A DNA stretch of 64,000 nt from Pseudomonas sp. ANT_H4 (GTDB lineage: Bacteria > Pseudomonadota > Gammaproteobacteria > Pseudomonadales > Pseudomonadaceae): assembly GCF_008369295.1 (NCBI RefSeq), contig NZ_VOBG01000006.1, forward strand, positions 124,001 to 188,000, given 5' to 3'. This document shows, piece by piece, positions 51,997 through 55,224 of this stretch (position 1 is the first letter of the stretch; each line of letters starts with the position of its first letter). Under the pieces are notes generated by a model. The model had not been told where the DNA came from and ran no database searches. It saw only the letters and a list, made by a program, of their open reading frames with translations. The position numbers were made by a program, and so were the translations under genes.

Positions 51997-53127
51997 TTAC
52001 AAGTTACGGCTGTGACGGTAGTCGCTGACCGCTTCGTACACCGCTTTGCGCAGTCGGTTGATCCCGCCAATCGGCCGGTGCTCTTCCAGGCCGAACCACG
52101 GGTTGAACGACTGGTTATCGCAGGCCAGGTTCAGCGCCGGCGTATCGAAATCCTGGGCCGGGATCTTGATGTTGGCGACAGTTTTATAAGGTGCATCGCT
52201 TTGCTTCCACTCGATGCTGGTGTCTTCGATCGGCATGTATTTCTGTGGATTCTGCCGCTGGATTTGCAGGACAAAACACGCCGCCACACGGTCGGTGGAC
52301 AACTGCTGATTCAAGGCGCTGCGCAGGAAGTTCGGCAGGTCCTGATTCTGTTTGGGCAGGGAGTACTCCGGGCAGCTTTGCGGGTCGGGTGCGACGCGAA
52401 ACTTGGCGTTGGCCGTGCCGAACTTGTAGGGCGATACGGAAAAGTAGGTGGTCTGGGTCGTACTGGCAGGCGCTGGGGCCAGGGTCGCCAGGGCGATAAA
52501 CAGGTGGCGCACCTGCCAACTGCGCGGGTCGAGGCTTGGGAAGAAGGCCATGACTTTTTTGCCATCGGCCTGGGCGCCTACGTTCTGCGCGTACTCAGCA
52601 ACGTCGCTGACAAAGAAGTTCGGATGACTGAACATAACGAAATCCTGTTCGCTGCGCGCCTGCTGATCGGCCAGCAGTTGCTTGCCCGGTACATCGAGCA
52701 ACTTGATCGCCATGCCCCGGGCATCGCGAATGCTGTCGAACTGCGGGTAGGCGTTGCCGTTGGACAGGCGCAGGGTCGCCTGCCAGGTTTTGCCCGGCTC
52801 GGCAAAAACGCCCTGGCGCAGGGCCGGGTCGAGGTCCGCCAGCACGCTGACCTCGGCCTTCACGCAGCCGTGAGCCTTGGCATGGGCGTCGCGTAAATAA
52901 CGCGTGCCCTCGCGGTGCTGATCGACGATGCGCACCGCTGTCTGAATGATGCCTTGGGTCATGGCGGCTTCCCCTGGCGGGATTTGTTCATCCGGCGACA
53001 CCGGGCCGCTGTGTTGCCAGGCGAACCAGATGGTGGACAGCAACCAGCCGAGCAAGCCCAGGCCCACCAGCCACAACAGGGTCTTGCCGAGAAACGTGCC
53101 GAGGCGCAGCCAAAGTCGAGCGAGCAT
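51997..53127 (-). CDS. Membrane-anchored catalase-family haemoprotein
   Basis: A 376-residue protein with an N-terminal TM (about residues 13-36, GKTLLWLVGLGLLGWLLSTIWF) and a reduced catalase-like domain. The catalase-like signature ALRLSNG-type (ATLRLSNGNAYPQFD), FVMFSHPNFFVSDV and the C-terminal FNPWFGLEEHRPIGGINRLR are typical of the short SrpA-like catalase group. These proteins lack the full catalase length and often act as peroxidases, or on lipid hydroperoxides. It lies 30 bases after the RoxA-like cytochrome gene, so the pair is probably co-transcribed. Whether it makes true catalase activity is doubtful. Confidence 0.88.
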   Translation of the reverse strand: MLARLWLRLGTFLGKTLLWLVGLGLLGWLLSTIWFAWQHSGPVSPDEQIPPGEAAMTQGIIQTAVRIVDQHREGTRYLRDAHAKAHGCVKAEVSVLADLDPALRQGVFAEPGKTWQATLRLSNGNAYPQFDSIRDARGMAIKLLDVPGKQLLADQQARSEQDFVMFSHPNFFVSDVAEYAQNVGAQADGKKVMAFFPSLDPRSWQVRHLFIALATLAPAPASTTQTTYFSVSPYKFGTANAKFRVAPDPQSCPEYSLPKQNQDLPNFLRSALNQQLSTDRVAACFVLQIQRQNPQKYMPIEDTSIEWKQSDAPYKTVANIKIPAQDFDTPALNLACDNQSFNPWFGLEEHRPIGGINRLRKAVYEAVSDYRHSRNL

Positions 53128-53157
53128 TGAAAAATCCTTTTTGACGAAGACGGTTGA

Positions 53158-54966
53158 TCAGGGCAGTTGCTGTTCCAGCGGGCCGCCCAGTACTTTCAAA
53201 TATTCCAGCAGCGCCCAGCGTTCCTCGGGTAGCAAGCCACGCCCGATCACGCCGTTACCCCGCTTGCCGGCACGGAATTCGTGACCGCTGTTGTGGTTGC
53301 CGGTGATCTGCGTATCGAACAGGAAGGCGTTTTTAAAGGCCCAGGTTTGATAGCCCAGGTGACGCGGGTCGTAGTCGAAGGTGCCTTTATAGAAGGTACG
53401 GCTGCGCTCGTCCTGGGGAGAGAGCAACTGGTAGATCGTCGGTACCGAGCCGTTGTGCAGGAACGGCGGCGTGGCCCACACACCGGCCAGCGGGCGTGCC
53501 TTGTAGGCGCGTAACTCGCGCACGCCAATCGGCAAGCCGTAGCCGTCCAGGCGCGGGCGTTCGGCCGGGGTGACACCGGCAGCGCGATAAGCATGCTCTT
53601 CGACGAAGGCGGTGACGTAGGCCAGCCCCTTGGCCACCGATATTTGTCGCAGGTCCAGAGGCTCGGTTGGCGTCGGGTGCAGCTCGACGTTCAACTGCGC
53701 CAATTCTGCCGGGTCCCATTGCAGGGCGCTGAGGTCGTAACGCTGGTCGGCGATGTTGCTGGCGGTACCAGGGTCGGTGCCGATCACCTCGACGGGGAGC
53801 ACTTTCAGTTGCTGCACCGGGCGACCATTGACTTGGGTAACGGTTGGCTCGTGGCAGCCTGCGCAGTTTTTGCTAAACAGGGCGCGGCCTTGAGCCGCCA
53901 GTGGCTTGTCGACGACGCCGAACAGTTCTTCAGGCCAGGTGGGGGGCTTGAGCCGTTGCAGGGTTTCCTCAATCAGGTTCAAGTCGCGAACTCGCACGCT
54001 GGACGGGTAGCGCGCATCGCCCTTGAGAGGCTGGCCGGCGCTGTCGAAGAAATCCAGGGTTGCGCCCACGCCCAGGGCTTCACCGATATTGCGCGCCATG
54101 GGTTGCTGGGCCGAGCCGTTCCATTGCACCCAGTCGAAGTTCCACATGTCCCACAGTTGCGGGTAATCCACCGGGGCGTTGGCGATGCGGTAGTTGTCCG
54201 GGGAAATGGCATCGCCGAAGCTGGCATTGGCGATGCGGCCGAAGGCGTCGGTGCGGCCTGGGCCTTCTTCGGTGGGGTAGAGGCCGCGATGGGTGTCGTT
54301 CCAGGCGACCTTAAGGAAATTGTTCAGGGACTTTTTGAAGTCCTGGCGCAGCTGGCTATGTTGGGCATCGTATTCATCCCCCAGCACCGAGCGGGCGAAA
54401 CGCTCGAATTTCCACGGGTTGTAATAGGTGGACGCGAGGCTGGCCACTAACGCCTGGCCGAAACTGCCACCACGCAGGGTAGGGACGCTGGAGGGCAATA
54501 CGTGCTGGGCTGAACCACCGTCGATGCGTAAGGCCTGGCCCTTGAAGTGCAGCTCGCCGGTGTGGCAGGCGGCGCAAGTGATGTCTAGAAACTCGTCGTT
54601 GCTGCCGGCGTTCTTGTGTCGGGCGAAGCCGACAGGCAGGTTGCCGGGGTTTTGGGCTGTGACCTGTTGTCGCGGGTCTACCAGGAAGCCGAAGCGCGCC
54701 AGGTATTCGGGCGCGGCAAAACGTTGCTGGGAAAACGGCAGTTCCAGTGCGGTGAACCAGTCATAGCGCAGGCCCTTGACCTGAGTGCCCTGGGGCGTGA
54801 AGTAATACGTCTGGCGATCGGCCGCACTCCATTGATTCTGGTAGTGCACCTGCTCCACCGGCACGTACTCCGGCAGTTTCGGGTTGGCAACGTAATAGAG
54901 CAGCACTGCAAGGCCGACGCCCAGTAATGCGAGGGCCAGGAGTAAAACACGGGAAAAAATGCGCAA
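53158..54966 (-). CDS. Dihaem cytochrome c, RoxA/diol-synthase-like
   Basis: A 602-residue protein with an N-terminal TM or uncleaved signal (about residues 5-28) and two CxxCH haem sites: CAACHTGEL near residue 132 and CAGCHEPTV near 370. The ARPLAGVWATPPFLHNGS segment resembles the signature of the RoxA-type dihaem family (PF21419 as I recall), which includes rubber oxygenase RoxA and the P. aeruginosa fatty-acid 10S-dioxygenase/diol-synthase pair (PA2077/PA2078). It may also be a simpler peroxidase of the CcpA group. Its partner downstream is the catalase-like protein. Substrate unknown. Confidence 0.88.
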   Translation of the reverse strand: MRIFSRVLLLALALLGVGLAVLLYYVANPKLPEYVPVEQVHYQNQWSAADRQTYYFTPQGTQVKGLRYDWFTALELPFSQQRFAAPEYLARFGFLVDPRQQVTAQNPGNLPVGFARHKNAGSNDEFLDITCAACHTGELHFKGQALRIDGGSAQHVLPSSVPTLRGGSFGQALVASLASTYYNPWKFERFARSVLGDEYDAQHSQLRQDFKKSLNNFLKVAWNDTHRGLYPTEEGPGRTDAFGRIANASFGDAISPDNYRIANAPVDYPQLWDMWNFDWVQWNGSAQQPMARNIGEALGVGATLDFFDSAGQPLKGDARYPSSVRVRDLNLIEETLQRLKPPTWPEELFGVVDKPLAAQGRALFSKNCAGCHEPTVTQVNGRPVQQLKVLPVEVIGTDPGTASNIADQRYDLSALQWDPAELAQLNVELHPTPTEPLDLRQISVAKGLAYVTAFVEEHAYRAAGVTPAERPRLDGYGLPIGVRELRAYKARPLAGVWATPPFLHNGSVPTIYQLLSPQDERSRTFYKGTFDYDPRHLGYQTWAFKNAFLFDTQITGNHNSGHEFRAGKRGNGVIGRGLLPEERWALLEYLKVLGGPLEQQLP

Positions 54967-55224
54967 GATAACTATCCTTGTCGAGTGGTAGCGCTGTTAT
55001 GTCATCACCTAACGGGTGCGGCAAGTAACCATGAGCCCTGCTCATGGACGGTTTCTGGCGGTCCCAGCATCCGTTGCAGAGCGTTGGTATGGATGAAAAT
55101 GCGTTTAAACACGTGAACTTATCAGAAGTTTCCTGCTCACATGCCGGTAGCCATTGGTCGTGGCCGCCTGATAAGCTCGCGACTTTACTCGAATGCCCTT
55201 TTGGCGCATGAACAAGGAAATAGC

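Follow-up and report, generated by a model that had tools for sequence, protein, structure and literature searches.

Results

A dihaem cytochrome gene and a catalase-like gene lie side by side. We analysed a stretch of 64,000 nucleotides from Pseudomonas sp. ANT_H4 (contig NZ_VOBG01000006.1, positions 124,001 to 188,000; hereafter the window), in which two neighbouring genes encode a dihaem c-type cytochrome, P0002, and a catalase-like protein, P0001. A first-pass annotation made from the sequence alone had placed these genes 30 bases apart, had taken both products to be membrane anchored, and had proposed that together they form an oxylipin-producing or lipid-peroxide-handling module at the cell envelope. 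The two genes are indeed present on the minus strand at that spacing, encoding 602 and 376 amino acids (aa), and a hydrophobic N-terminal helix is predicted in each protein (Table 1). In many relatives (e.g., loci L038 to L041; L denotes a locus and G a genome) the two called open reading frames (ORFs) overlap by 4 bases.

The pair is widespread in the genus. A close P0001 (at least 66%) was found in 40 of 59 genomes sampled; the same 40 hold a close P0002, and the two genes are adjacent in every one of them. Because both are conserved to this extent, P0001 and P0002 are not chance ORFs. Neither close gene occurs in the other 19 genomes, three of which have only a distant catalase-like gene and one only a distant cytochrome. 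In a phylum sample of 398 genomes, P0001 matches occurred in 42 and P0002 matches in 41, with both in 24 compared to 4.3 expected, a count made regardless of kinship. The genes are adjacent in 20 of these 24 (14 of the window's family plus G393, G375, G442, G430, G105, and G244) and present without being adjacent in G243, G224, G232, and G257. The pairing on which the idea of a module depended is thus conserved at both scales.

Quick-method trees agreed with this picture. The catalase-like tree had 93 rows, with 47 of 140 sequences left out (close Pseudomonas relatives and L118), and the cytochrome tree had 63 rows, with 46 of 92 locus cytochromes left out and 17 others added. Each window protein fell in a clade of 19 rows, all of them with the partner gene within two genes (support, 93 for the catalase-like protein and 95 for the cytochrome). 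The nearest named relatives in the trees were those of P. putida 17522, from which we take the sampled genus to be Pseudomonas. The two clades differ in membership: L180 and L183 appear only in that of the catalase-like tree and L089 only in that of the cytochrome tree. Partner exchange may account for this, or else the placements are unsure. NF040606 cytochromes (see below) with no nearby catalase-like gene are common, making up 31 of the 63 tree rows. Two loci each carry two handles (L086 = L118 and L070 = L133).

Three loci depart from the simple pair. The cytochrome gene is damaged beside an intact catalase-like gene in G033 (L073, in pieces) and G057 (L048, internal stop). In Candidatus Methylumidiphilus (L168:2662-7872), the catalase-like gene is flanked by two different dihaem cytochrome genes.

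Table 1. Features of the gene pair in the window
Feature	Position	Strand	Basis
Dihaem c-type cytochrome P0002, NF040606 subfamily, 602 aa, TTG start	53158..54966	-	PF21419 and NF040606 matches, AlphaFold2 model
Catalase-fold haem protein P0001, y4iL-like family, 376 aa	51997..53127	-	Sequence profile and AlphaFold2 fold
P0001/P0002 intergenic gap, 30 bases, P0001 downstream	53128..53157	-	
Probable inner-membrane anchor of P0002, N-terminal hydrophobic helix, residues 2-27	54886..54963	-	AlphaFold2 model and hydropathy
P0002 first haem-c motif CAACH, residues 131-135 (H135)	54562..54576	-	C131, C134, and H135 invariant in alignments A2 and A3
P0002 VQWNG with W282, aligned to PA2077 W251 as numbered in excerpts of PMC4496055 (RoxA W302 equivalent)	54115..54129	-	Alignment A2
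P0002 ARNIGE, residues 291-296	54079..54096	-	Alignment A2
P0002 second haem-c motif CAGCH, residues 368-372 (H372)	53851..53865	-	Sequence, A2 and A3
P0002 HNGSVP (H504), RoxA/MauG-type motif, within PFLHNGSVP	53440..53457	-	Pfam match, alignments
P0002 C-terminal GHEF (H562), collinear with C-terminal GHDF of RoxA	53275..53286	-	Alignment
Probable membrane anchor of P0001, N-terminal hydrophobic helix, residues 2-38	53014..53124	-	AlphaFold2 model and hydropathy
P0001 RDAHAKAHG, residues 79-87: R79, Ala81, distal His82	52867..52893	-	Profile and row alignments
P0001 Ser167 at catalase distal Asn position (N137 of coral allene oxide synthase)	52627..52629	-	Alignment, motif count
P0001 RKAVY, residues 360-364: Arg360, Tyr364, catalase proximal R-x-x-x-Y haem ligand motif	52036..52050	-	Profile alignment
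Sigma70-like promoter ahead of the cytochrome: TTGCCG, 17 bases, CATAAC	54996..55024	-	By eye

The cytochrome is a relative of PA2077. P0002 scored 60.4 bits against the Pfam family RoxA-like_Cyt-c (PF21419; cut-off, 26.7) and 579.7 bits against the NCBIfam subfamily NF040606 (cut-off, 150), which it matched over model positions 1 to 523 of 524. The NCBIfam models of RoxA, RoxB, and RoxC matched it locally with 51.5 to 59.9 bits, far under their cut-offs of 900 to 1000, and we therefore rejected its identification as a RoxA. Its AlphaFold2 model (predicted local distance difference test [pLDDT], 88.2) found one match in the PDB at E ≤ 0.001 with Foldseek, namely RoxA (4b2n; 1.8e-10, TM 0.45), and VIA-align gave Z scores of 16.1 for RoxA (over 406 residues), 12.3 for MauG, and 10.9 for CcpA. 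The label "RoxA-like" in the first-pass annotation accordingly holds as a statement of fold and of kinship to the RoxA/PA2077-PA2078 family, with actual membership lying in NF040606. P0002 also has the sequence marks of FadCcp proteins: two CxxCH motifs, a PYxHNGSV-type motif (with Phe for Tyr), and a hydrophobic N terminus.

The functional anchor in this subfamily comes from excerpts of PMC4496055, in which PA2077 is a fatty-acid 10S-dioxygenase that makes hydroperoxides and PA2078 is a diol synthase; mutation of either haem His abolishes PA2077 activity, and PA2078 tolerates both. We sought orthologues of the two via PF21419 in 148 genomes of the family and identified them in G564 as a tandem of 624 and 634 residues. 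Their haem His positions agree with those excerpts (PA2078 H130 and H365; PA2077 H130 and H375), the HNGS His lies at 544 and 553 (543 and 553 in the paper), and W251/F269 and S243/F260 match exactly once signal peptides of 21 and 23 residues are added. Disagreement was seen in the printed CxxCH letters of PA2077 and in the C-terminal His (612 versus 611). Both orthologues are NF040606 members (PA2077 orthologue, 528.7 bits; PA2078 orthologue, 488.2 bits), and P0002 aligns with the PA2077 orthologue over its full length (30%, 1e-65). The haem-motif cysteines and H135, H372, H504, and H562 of P0002 are invariant in all 34 rows of alignment A3 and all 20 of A2. The PA2077 orthologue retains R292, N293, and E296 of P0002; the PA2078 orthologue has G, D, and V at these positions and Ser in the W282 column.

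Placing P0002 against RoxA and PA2077/PA2078, as the first-pass annotation had suggested, gave a divided answer: P0002 shares its NCBIfam subfamily with the PA2077/PA2078 orthologues, but these form a separate 8-row clade in the cytochrome tree (support, 99). A G105 cytochrome, L090_6835, groups with those orthologues and L074 (support, 88) and is itself followed by a catalase-like gene. In G564 the window pair likewise has its orthologues (64% and 68%). Because one genome carries both systems, the window pair is distinct from the PA2078-PA2077 diol-synthase operon, and we rejected the idea that the two are the same. Separately, two genomes of the window's genus (L080:4589-11316 and L081:491-7243) hold a second, distant RoxA-like dihaem cytochrome, flanked by a 1150-residue ORF on one side and a calcineurin-like phosphoesterase on the other, an order common to both.

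NCBI names NF040606 "di-heme-cytochrome C peroxidase," and this name is one ground for the main rival explanation, a periplasmic H2O2 defence pair in which P0002 would be a dihaem peroxidase fed by the respiratory chain and P0001 a small catalase or peroxidase. We judge this rival unlikely. The name also covers the PA2077/PA2078 orthologues and is for that reason no evidence of activity. E296 might do acid-base chemistry, and RoxA has no such Glu according to excerpts of PMC6797691, but PA2077 has the same Glu. P0002 does not fall with simple dihaem peroxidases. The structure nearest to it is that of RoxA, ahead of MauG and CcpA. The genome already holds four full catalases (563 to 647 bits to PF00199) and a CCP/MauG-type peroxidase; the P0002 profile aligned with the latter over residues 350 to 599, a span that leaves E296 outside.

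That RoxA is the best solved relative would fit a RoxA-like oxygenase of some other hydrophobic substrate (an isoprenoid, carotenoid, quinone, or hydrocarbon), with P0001 removing H2O2 or hydroperoxides that destroy haem. In excerpts of PMC6797691, RoxA is inhibited by H2O2, which also destroys the haem of the enzyme, and no catalase-like activity was found, so a protective partner would make sense. Even so, we regard this possibility as very unlikely: P0002 is homologous over its full length to PA2077, a fatty-acid enzyme, whereas the RoxA/B/C models match it only locally, and phospholipase neighbours (see below) indicate acyl lipids.

The partner has a catalase fold. P0001 scored 24.9 bits against the Pfam catalase family PF00199 (cut-off, 25), and a single-sequence search of the PDB with it returned zero matches. 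A profile of 20 relatives did reach catalases in the PDB (best, 5e-16), a mycobacterial protein (3e4w; 1e-15), and coral allene oxide synthase (1u5u; 8e-7), and the AlphaFold2 model (pLDDT, 92.8) has a clear catalase fold. With VIA-align the model was closest to the allene oxide synthase structures 1u5u and 3dy5 (Z 28.3 over 301 residues), followed by the mycobacterial 3e4y (26.8) and true catalases (25.2 or less); Foldseek ordered the matches by E value with 3e4y and 3e4w first and 1u5u third. At 376 aa and below the PF00199 cut-off, P0001 was rejected as an ordinary catalase. Arg79, His82, Arg120, Arg360, Tyr364, and Arg371 are conserved in all 24 cytochrome-partnered rows. The Tyr of TYFSVSPYKFG was considered as the proximal ligand and rejected, as the profile alignment places the proximal Tyr in RKAVY. 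The genome of the window encodes another short catalase-like protein (G000:C23:38271-39110, L005; 391-aa open frame, 94 bits to PF00199).

The residue preceding the distal His is mostly Ala or Val across the 93-row alignment and is Val in the aligned catalases, an observation that fits the H2O2 defence pair. The closeness of P0001 to the 33-kDa 3e4y, which we take to be a peroxidase, would in turn fit a repair or clearance system for peroxidised envelope lipids, with P0002 as an electron-donating lipid-hydroperoxide reductase and P0001 as a lipid-hydroperoxide peroxidase. The hydrophobic N termini of both proteins and the phospholipase partners found elsewhere would suit such a role as well. 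PA2077, however, makes hydroperoxides, and its overexpression without PA2078 is lethal according to excerpts of PMC4496055; we consider lipid repair quite improbable.

A relative of P0001 was also found at a single place in pNGR234a (34.6% over 79% of P0001, 2e-37), and this gene is probably y4iL, of the cd08152 family.

Lipid enzymes and alternative partners lie near relatives of the pair. Outside the window's family, the analysis covered 13 distinct paired loci, with L086 and L118 counted once. Partners were sought by BLAST with a few reference proteins and by Pfam scans of chosen neighbours, so that the genes scored below as having none could still have other partners, a lipoxygenase among them. 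A patatin phospholipase lies within three genes of the pair in five loci (L086, L087, L117, L163, and L188). The order in L086, L087, and L117 (Thalassotalea, Pseudoalteromonas, and a relative) is patatin, SMP-30, cytochrome, catalase-like gene; in L163 the patatin is on the opposite strand; and in the fifth locus, that of pNGR234a, the order is catalase, small gene, di-heme cytochrome, patatin. L153 has SMP-30 but no patatin, and both are absent from L088, L089, L090, L091, L168, L180, and L183. These patatin partners would be without a role in an H2O2 defence pair.

Among ten further plasmid cytochromes, one of whose records (L241) is unannotated, a patatin adjoins the gene in S. fredii CCBAU 25509 and is separated from it by one gene in R. 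etli IE4803. One gene likewise separates a P450 from the M. radiotolerans cytochrome, and an oleate hydratase lies about 3 kb from that of B. barranii; the annotation shows no adjoining lipid gene for the other annotated records. Two Rhizobium plasmids (L237:3603-10270 and L242:3603-10257) share an arrangement of helix-turn-helix regulator, NF040606 cytochrome, S8/S53 peptidase, and serine protease.

All loci together, a biased set, gave 139 catalase-like genes (137 distinct). Within two genes of these lies a cytochrome in 69 cases, a DyP peroxidase in 10, and a COX-like (animal-haem-peroxidase) gene in 5; the other 55 have none of the three. The DyP neighbours favour the H2O2 defence pair, as do a LodA fusion (L210) and a relative of P0001 that adjoins an FAD amine oxidase (L116). 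LodA-type oxidases make H2O2 and y4iL-type fusions to them have been reported (excerpts of PMC4417212), and H2O2 inactivation has been proposed, as a hypothesis, for a yeast y4iL-like gene (excerpts of PMC5103461). In L210:3852-6809 (G243), the catalase-like domain is fused to a LodA-type quinoprotein oxidase (PF17990 and PF18417), as known for LodA group III. G440 encodes a 900-residue ORF (L092:10688-13390) combining a DyP-like region (found by BLAST, with no Pfam match) with a catalase-like domain, close to separate catalase-like and COX-like haem peroxidase genes.

P0001-type genes adjoin COX-like genes at L092, L114, L119, L148, L187, and L248, the hosts being G440, two Phenylobacterium metagenome-assembled genomes, a filamentous cyanobacterium, Methylobacterium currus, and Paracoccus yeei. 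Members of the COX-like family pair with a P450 instead on two rhizobial plasmids, of S. medicae and R. etli. At L245:2724-5641 and L246:2712-5614, both on rhizobial plasmids, the P450 gene directly neighbours that of the COX-like haem peroxidase, and in one case the two overlap; these pairs are a possible bacterial counterpart of fungal dioxygenase-P450 fusions. The catalase-like gene of a Nostoc sp. HK-01 plasmid has no annotated dioxygenase neighbour, and the COX-like gene of an Acaryochloris plasmid has no catalase-like neighbour in its annotation.

Surroundings of the pair in the window. The promoter-like elements TTGCC and CATAA ahead of the cytochrome are conserved in 13 of 13 aligned sequences (the window and 12 genomes of the genus). 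An FKBP-type isomerase ORF, divergent from the pair, starts at 55141.

Discussion

We propose, tentatively and as a plausible rather than a probable reading, that P0002 and P0001 constitute a two-enzyme module that forms and processes lipid hydroperoxides at the periplasmic face of the inner membrane. In this scheme, P0002 would have O2, and not H2O2, as its oxidant and would add it to an unsaturated acyl chain (a free fatty acid or a lipid) at its N-terminal haem. The anchored P0001 would then receive the hydroperoxide at the haem ligated by Tyr364, on whose distal side His82 stands, and might convert it by lyase, isomerase, or peroxidase chemistry into an oxylipin or a harmless product. The oxidant, the lipid substrate, the hand-over of the hydroperoxide, and the periplasmic location all belong to what we infer from the genes.

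Several observations support this proposal. P0002 belongs to the same subfamily as PA2077 and PA2078, is homologous to PA2077 over its full length, and shares with PA2077 and not with PA2078 both the inter-haem Trp and the R-N-x-x-E residues. Coral allene oxide synthase is the top VIA-align match of P0001, whose haem-site residues are conserved among its cytochrome-partnered relatives. The pairing holds in the genus, in the phylum sample, and in both 19-row clades. Patatins recur beside the pair, the COX-like partners recall the Nostoc system described below, and the catalase-like gene after L090_6835 extends the pairing to a cytochrome that groups with the PA2077/PA2078 orthologues. Family kinship, fold, the hydrophobic N-terminal helices, and pairing bear out part of the first-pass annotation, whose proposed fatty-acid product would go beyond them.

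Other findings weigh against the proposal. Catalase-related enzymes acting on fatty-acid hydroperoxides are reportedly marked by a Thr-His pair. Coral allene oxide synthase has this Thr (T66), whereas P0001 has Ala81 before His82. In the 24 cytochrome-partnered rows this residue is Ala in 17, Val in 5, Gln in 2, and Thr in none, and a motif count over 139 genes, which included stray hits and 24 misses, found one Thr (L172, no partner). Because this Thr-His pair is absent from P0001, "allene-oxide-synthase-like" is a statement of fold and not of reaction; the kinship claimed in the first-pass annotation stands for the fold and the best VIA-align match, and is qualified by this absence and by the mycobacterial protein ranking first with Foldseek. 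The distal Asn is present in 16 of the 24 partnered rows (by motif, with some rows missed or misplaced) and is Ser in P0001, as in one P. putida by the same motif count. On the cytochrome side, the inter-haem Trp is replaced by Tyr in half of the aligned relatives (10 of 20, A2). The distal Phe (F269 of PA2077 and F260 of PA2078, equated with RoxA F317 in excerpts of PMC4496055) was not found in P0002, the column falling within an insert that P0002 does not have (A2).

Gene context adds to these counterpoints. Eight of the 13 distinct paired loci lack a patatin, and no lipid gene was found among the scanned neighbours in the window. The phylum sample held 33 catalase-like places beyond the window's family: a cytochrome adjoins 6 of them, a DyP lies within two genes of another 6, a COX-like gene adjoins 1, two are fusions (one with a DyP, one with LodA), and the remaining 18 show no such partner. 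Since its partners vary in this way, the catalase-like family may handle peroxide in general, and the substrate of P0001 is not readable from its fold. An N-terminal hydrophobic stretch occurs in 22 of 24 rows with a cytochrome partner versus 14 of 69 others, but a test of this association restricted to independent pairs was without statistical power.

Our literature search, which mostly did not extend to subscription papers, found no description of a pairing between a dihaem cytochrome and a catalase-like protein. What is known of oxylipin synthesis in bacteria comes, to our knowledge, mainly from P. aeruginosa (PA2077/PA2078) and a few cyanobacteria. If the proposal is correct, 40 of the 59 sampled genomes of the genus, as well as marine and symbiotic bacteria, would have a second oxylipin or lipid-peroxide route; the y4iL-like catalase family, called uncharacterised in two papers, would gain a testable function; and that function would extend to the NGR234 symbiosis-plasmid gene grouped with a patatin phospholipase. 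A broader idea, which we offer with considerable doubt, is that the pair represents a third kind besides lipoxygenase-catalase and COX-catalase, joining a periplasmic c-type dihaem dioxygenase to an anchored catalase-fold hydroperoxide enzyme. The y4iL family might then supply oxylipin synthesis in bacteria with a second enzyme that is general and interchangeable and accompanies its dioxygenase partner from cytosol to periplasm, and the envelope of many pseudomonads may host an oxylipin pathway that has gone unrecognised and is separate from the diol-synthase operon.

Comparison with known systems

The PA2078-PA2077 operon, the oleate diol synthase operon of Pseudomonas aeruginosa (FadCcp), also consists of two genes, here for exported dihaem cytochromes of NF040606. 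The hydroperoxide formed by one enzyme is processed by the other, a division of labour that the window pair may share. The second enzyme of the operon, however, is another dihaem protein where that of the window pair has a catalase fold, and P0002 is only about 30% identical, falls in another clade, and is without the distal-Phe insert. RoxA (4b2n) resembles P0002 in overall dihaem architecture and motif order; it differs in that P0002 lies under the RoxA/B/C cut-offs and the F317 position was not found in the alignment.

For P0001, the catalase-related allene oxide synthases and lyases of coral and Acaryochloris (1u5u, 3dy5) have the same fold, a similar length, and matching haem residues, and they partner a lipid dioxygenase, which the PA2077 homologue beside P0001 may also be. 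Their partner is a lipoxygenase, fused to them in coral, they have Thr before the distal His, and identity is about 18%. The 33-kDa catalase-related protein of Mycobacterium avium (3e4w, 3e4y) is likewise a short catalase fold and the best Foldseek match, but its solved chain has no anchor, and we know of no dihaem partner for it. The y4iL gene of Sinorhizobium fredii NGR234 is a relative, and on pNGR234a its cluster also contains genes for a dihaem cytochrome and a patatin phospholipase; unlike P0001, its product has no N-terminal hydrophobic stretch by simple hydropathy, and a small gene separates it from the cytochrome.

Finally, Nostoc punctiforme combines a 10S-dioxygenase with a catalase-related 10S-hydroperoxide lyase, the product of the Nostoc dioxygenase being open to transformation by such a lyase according to excerpts of PMC13049297. 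The likeness is that of a dioxygenase with a catalase-related second enzyme, and it extends to the P0001-family genes that stand beside COX-like genes in a cyanobacterium and several alphaproteobacteria. The dioxygenase there is a COX relative, whereas that of the window would be a c-type dihaem protein, and both window proteins have hydrophobic N termini.

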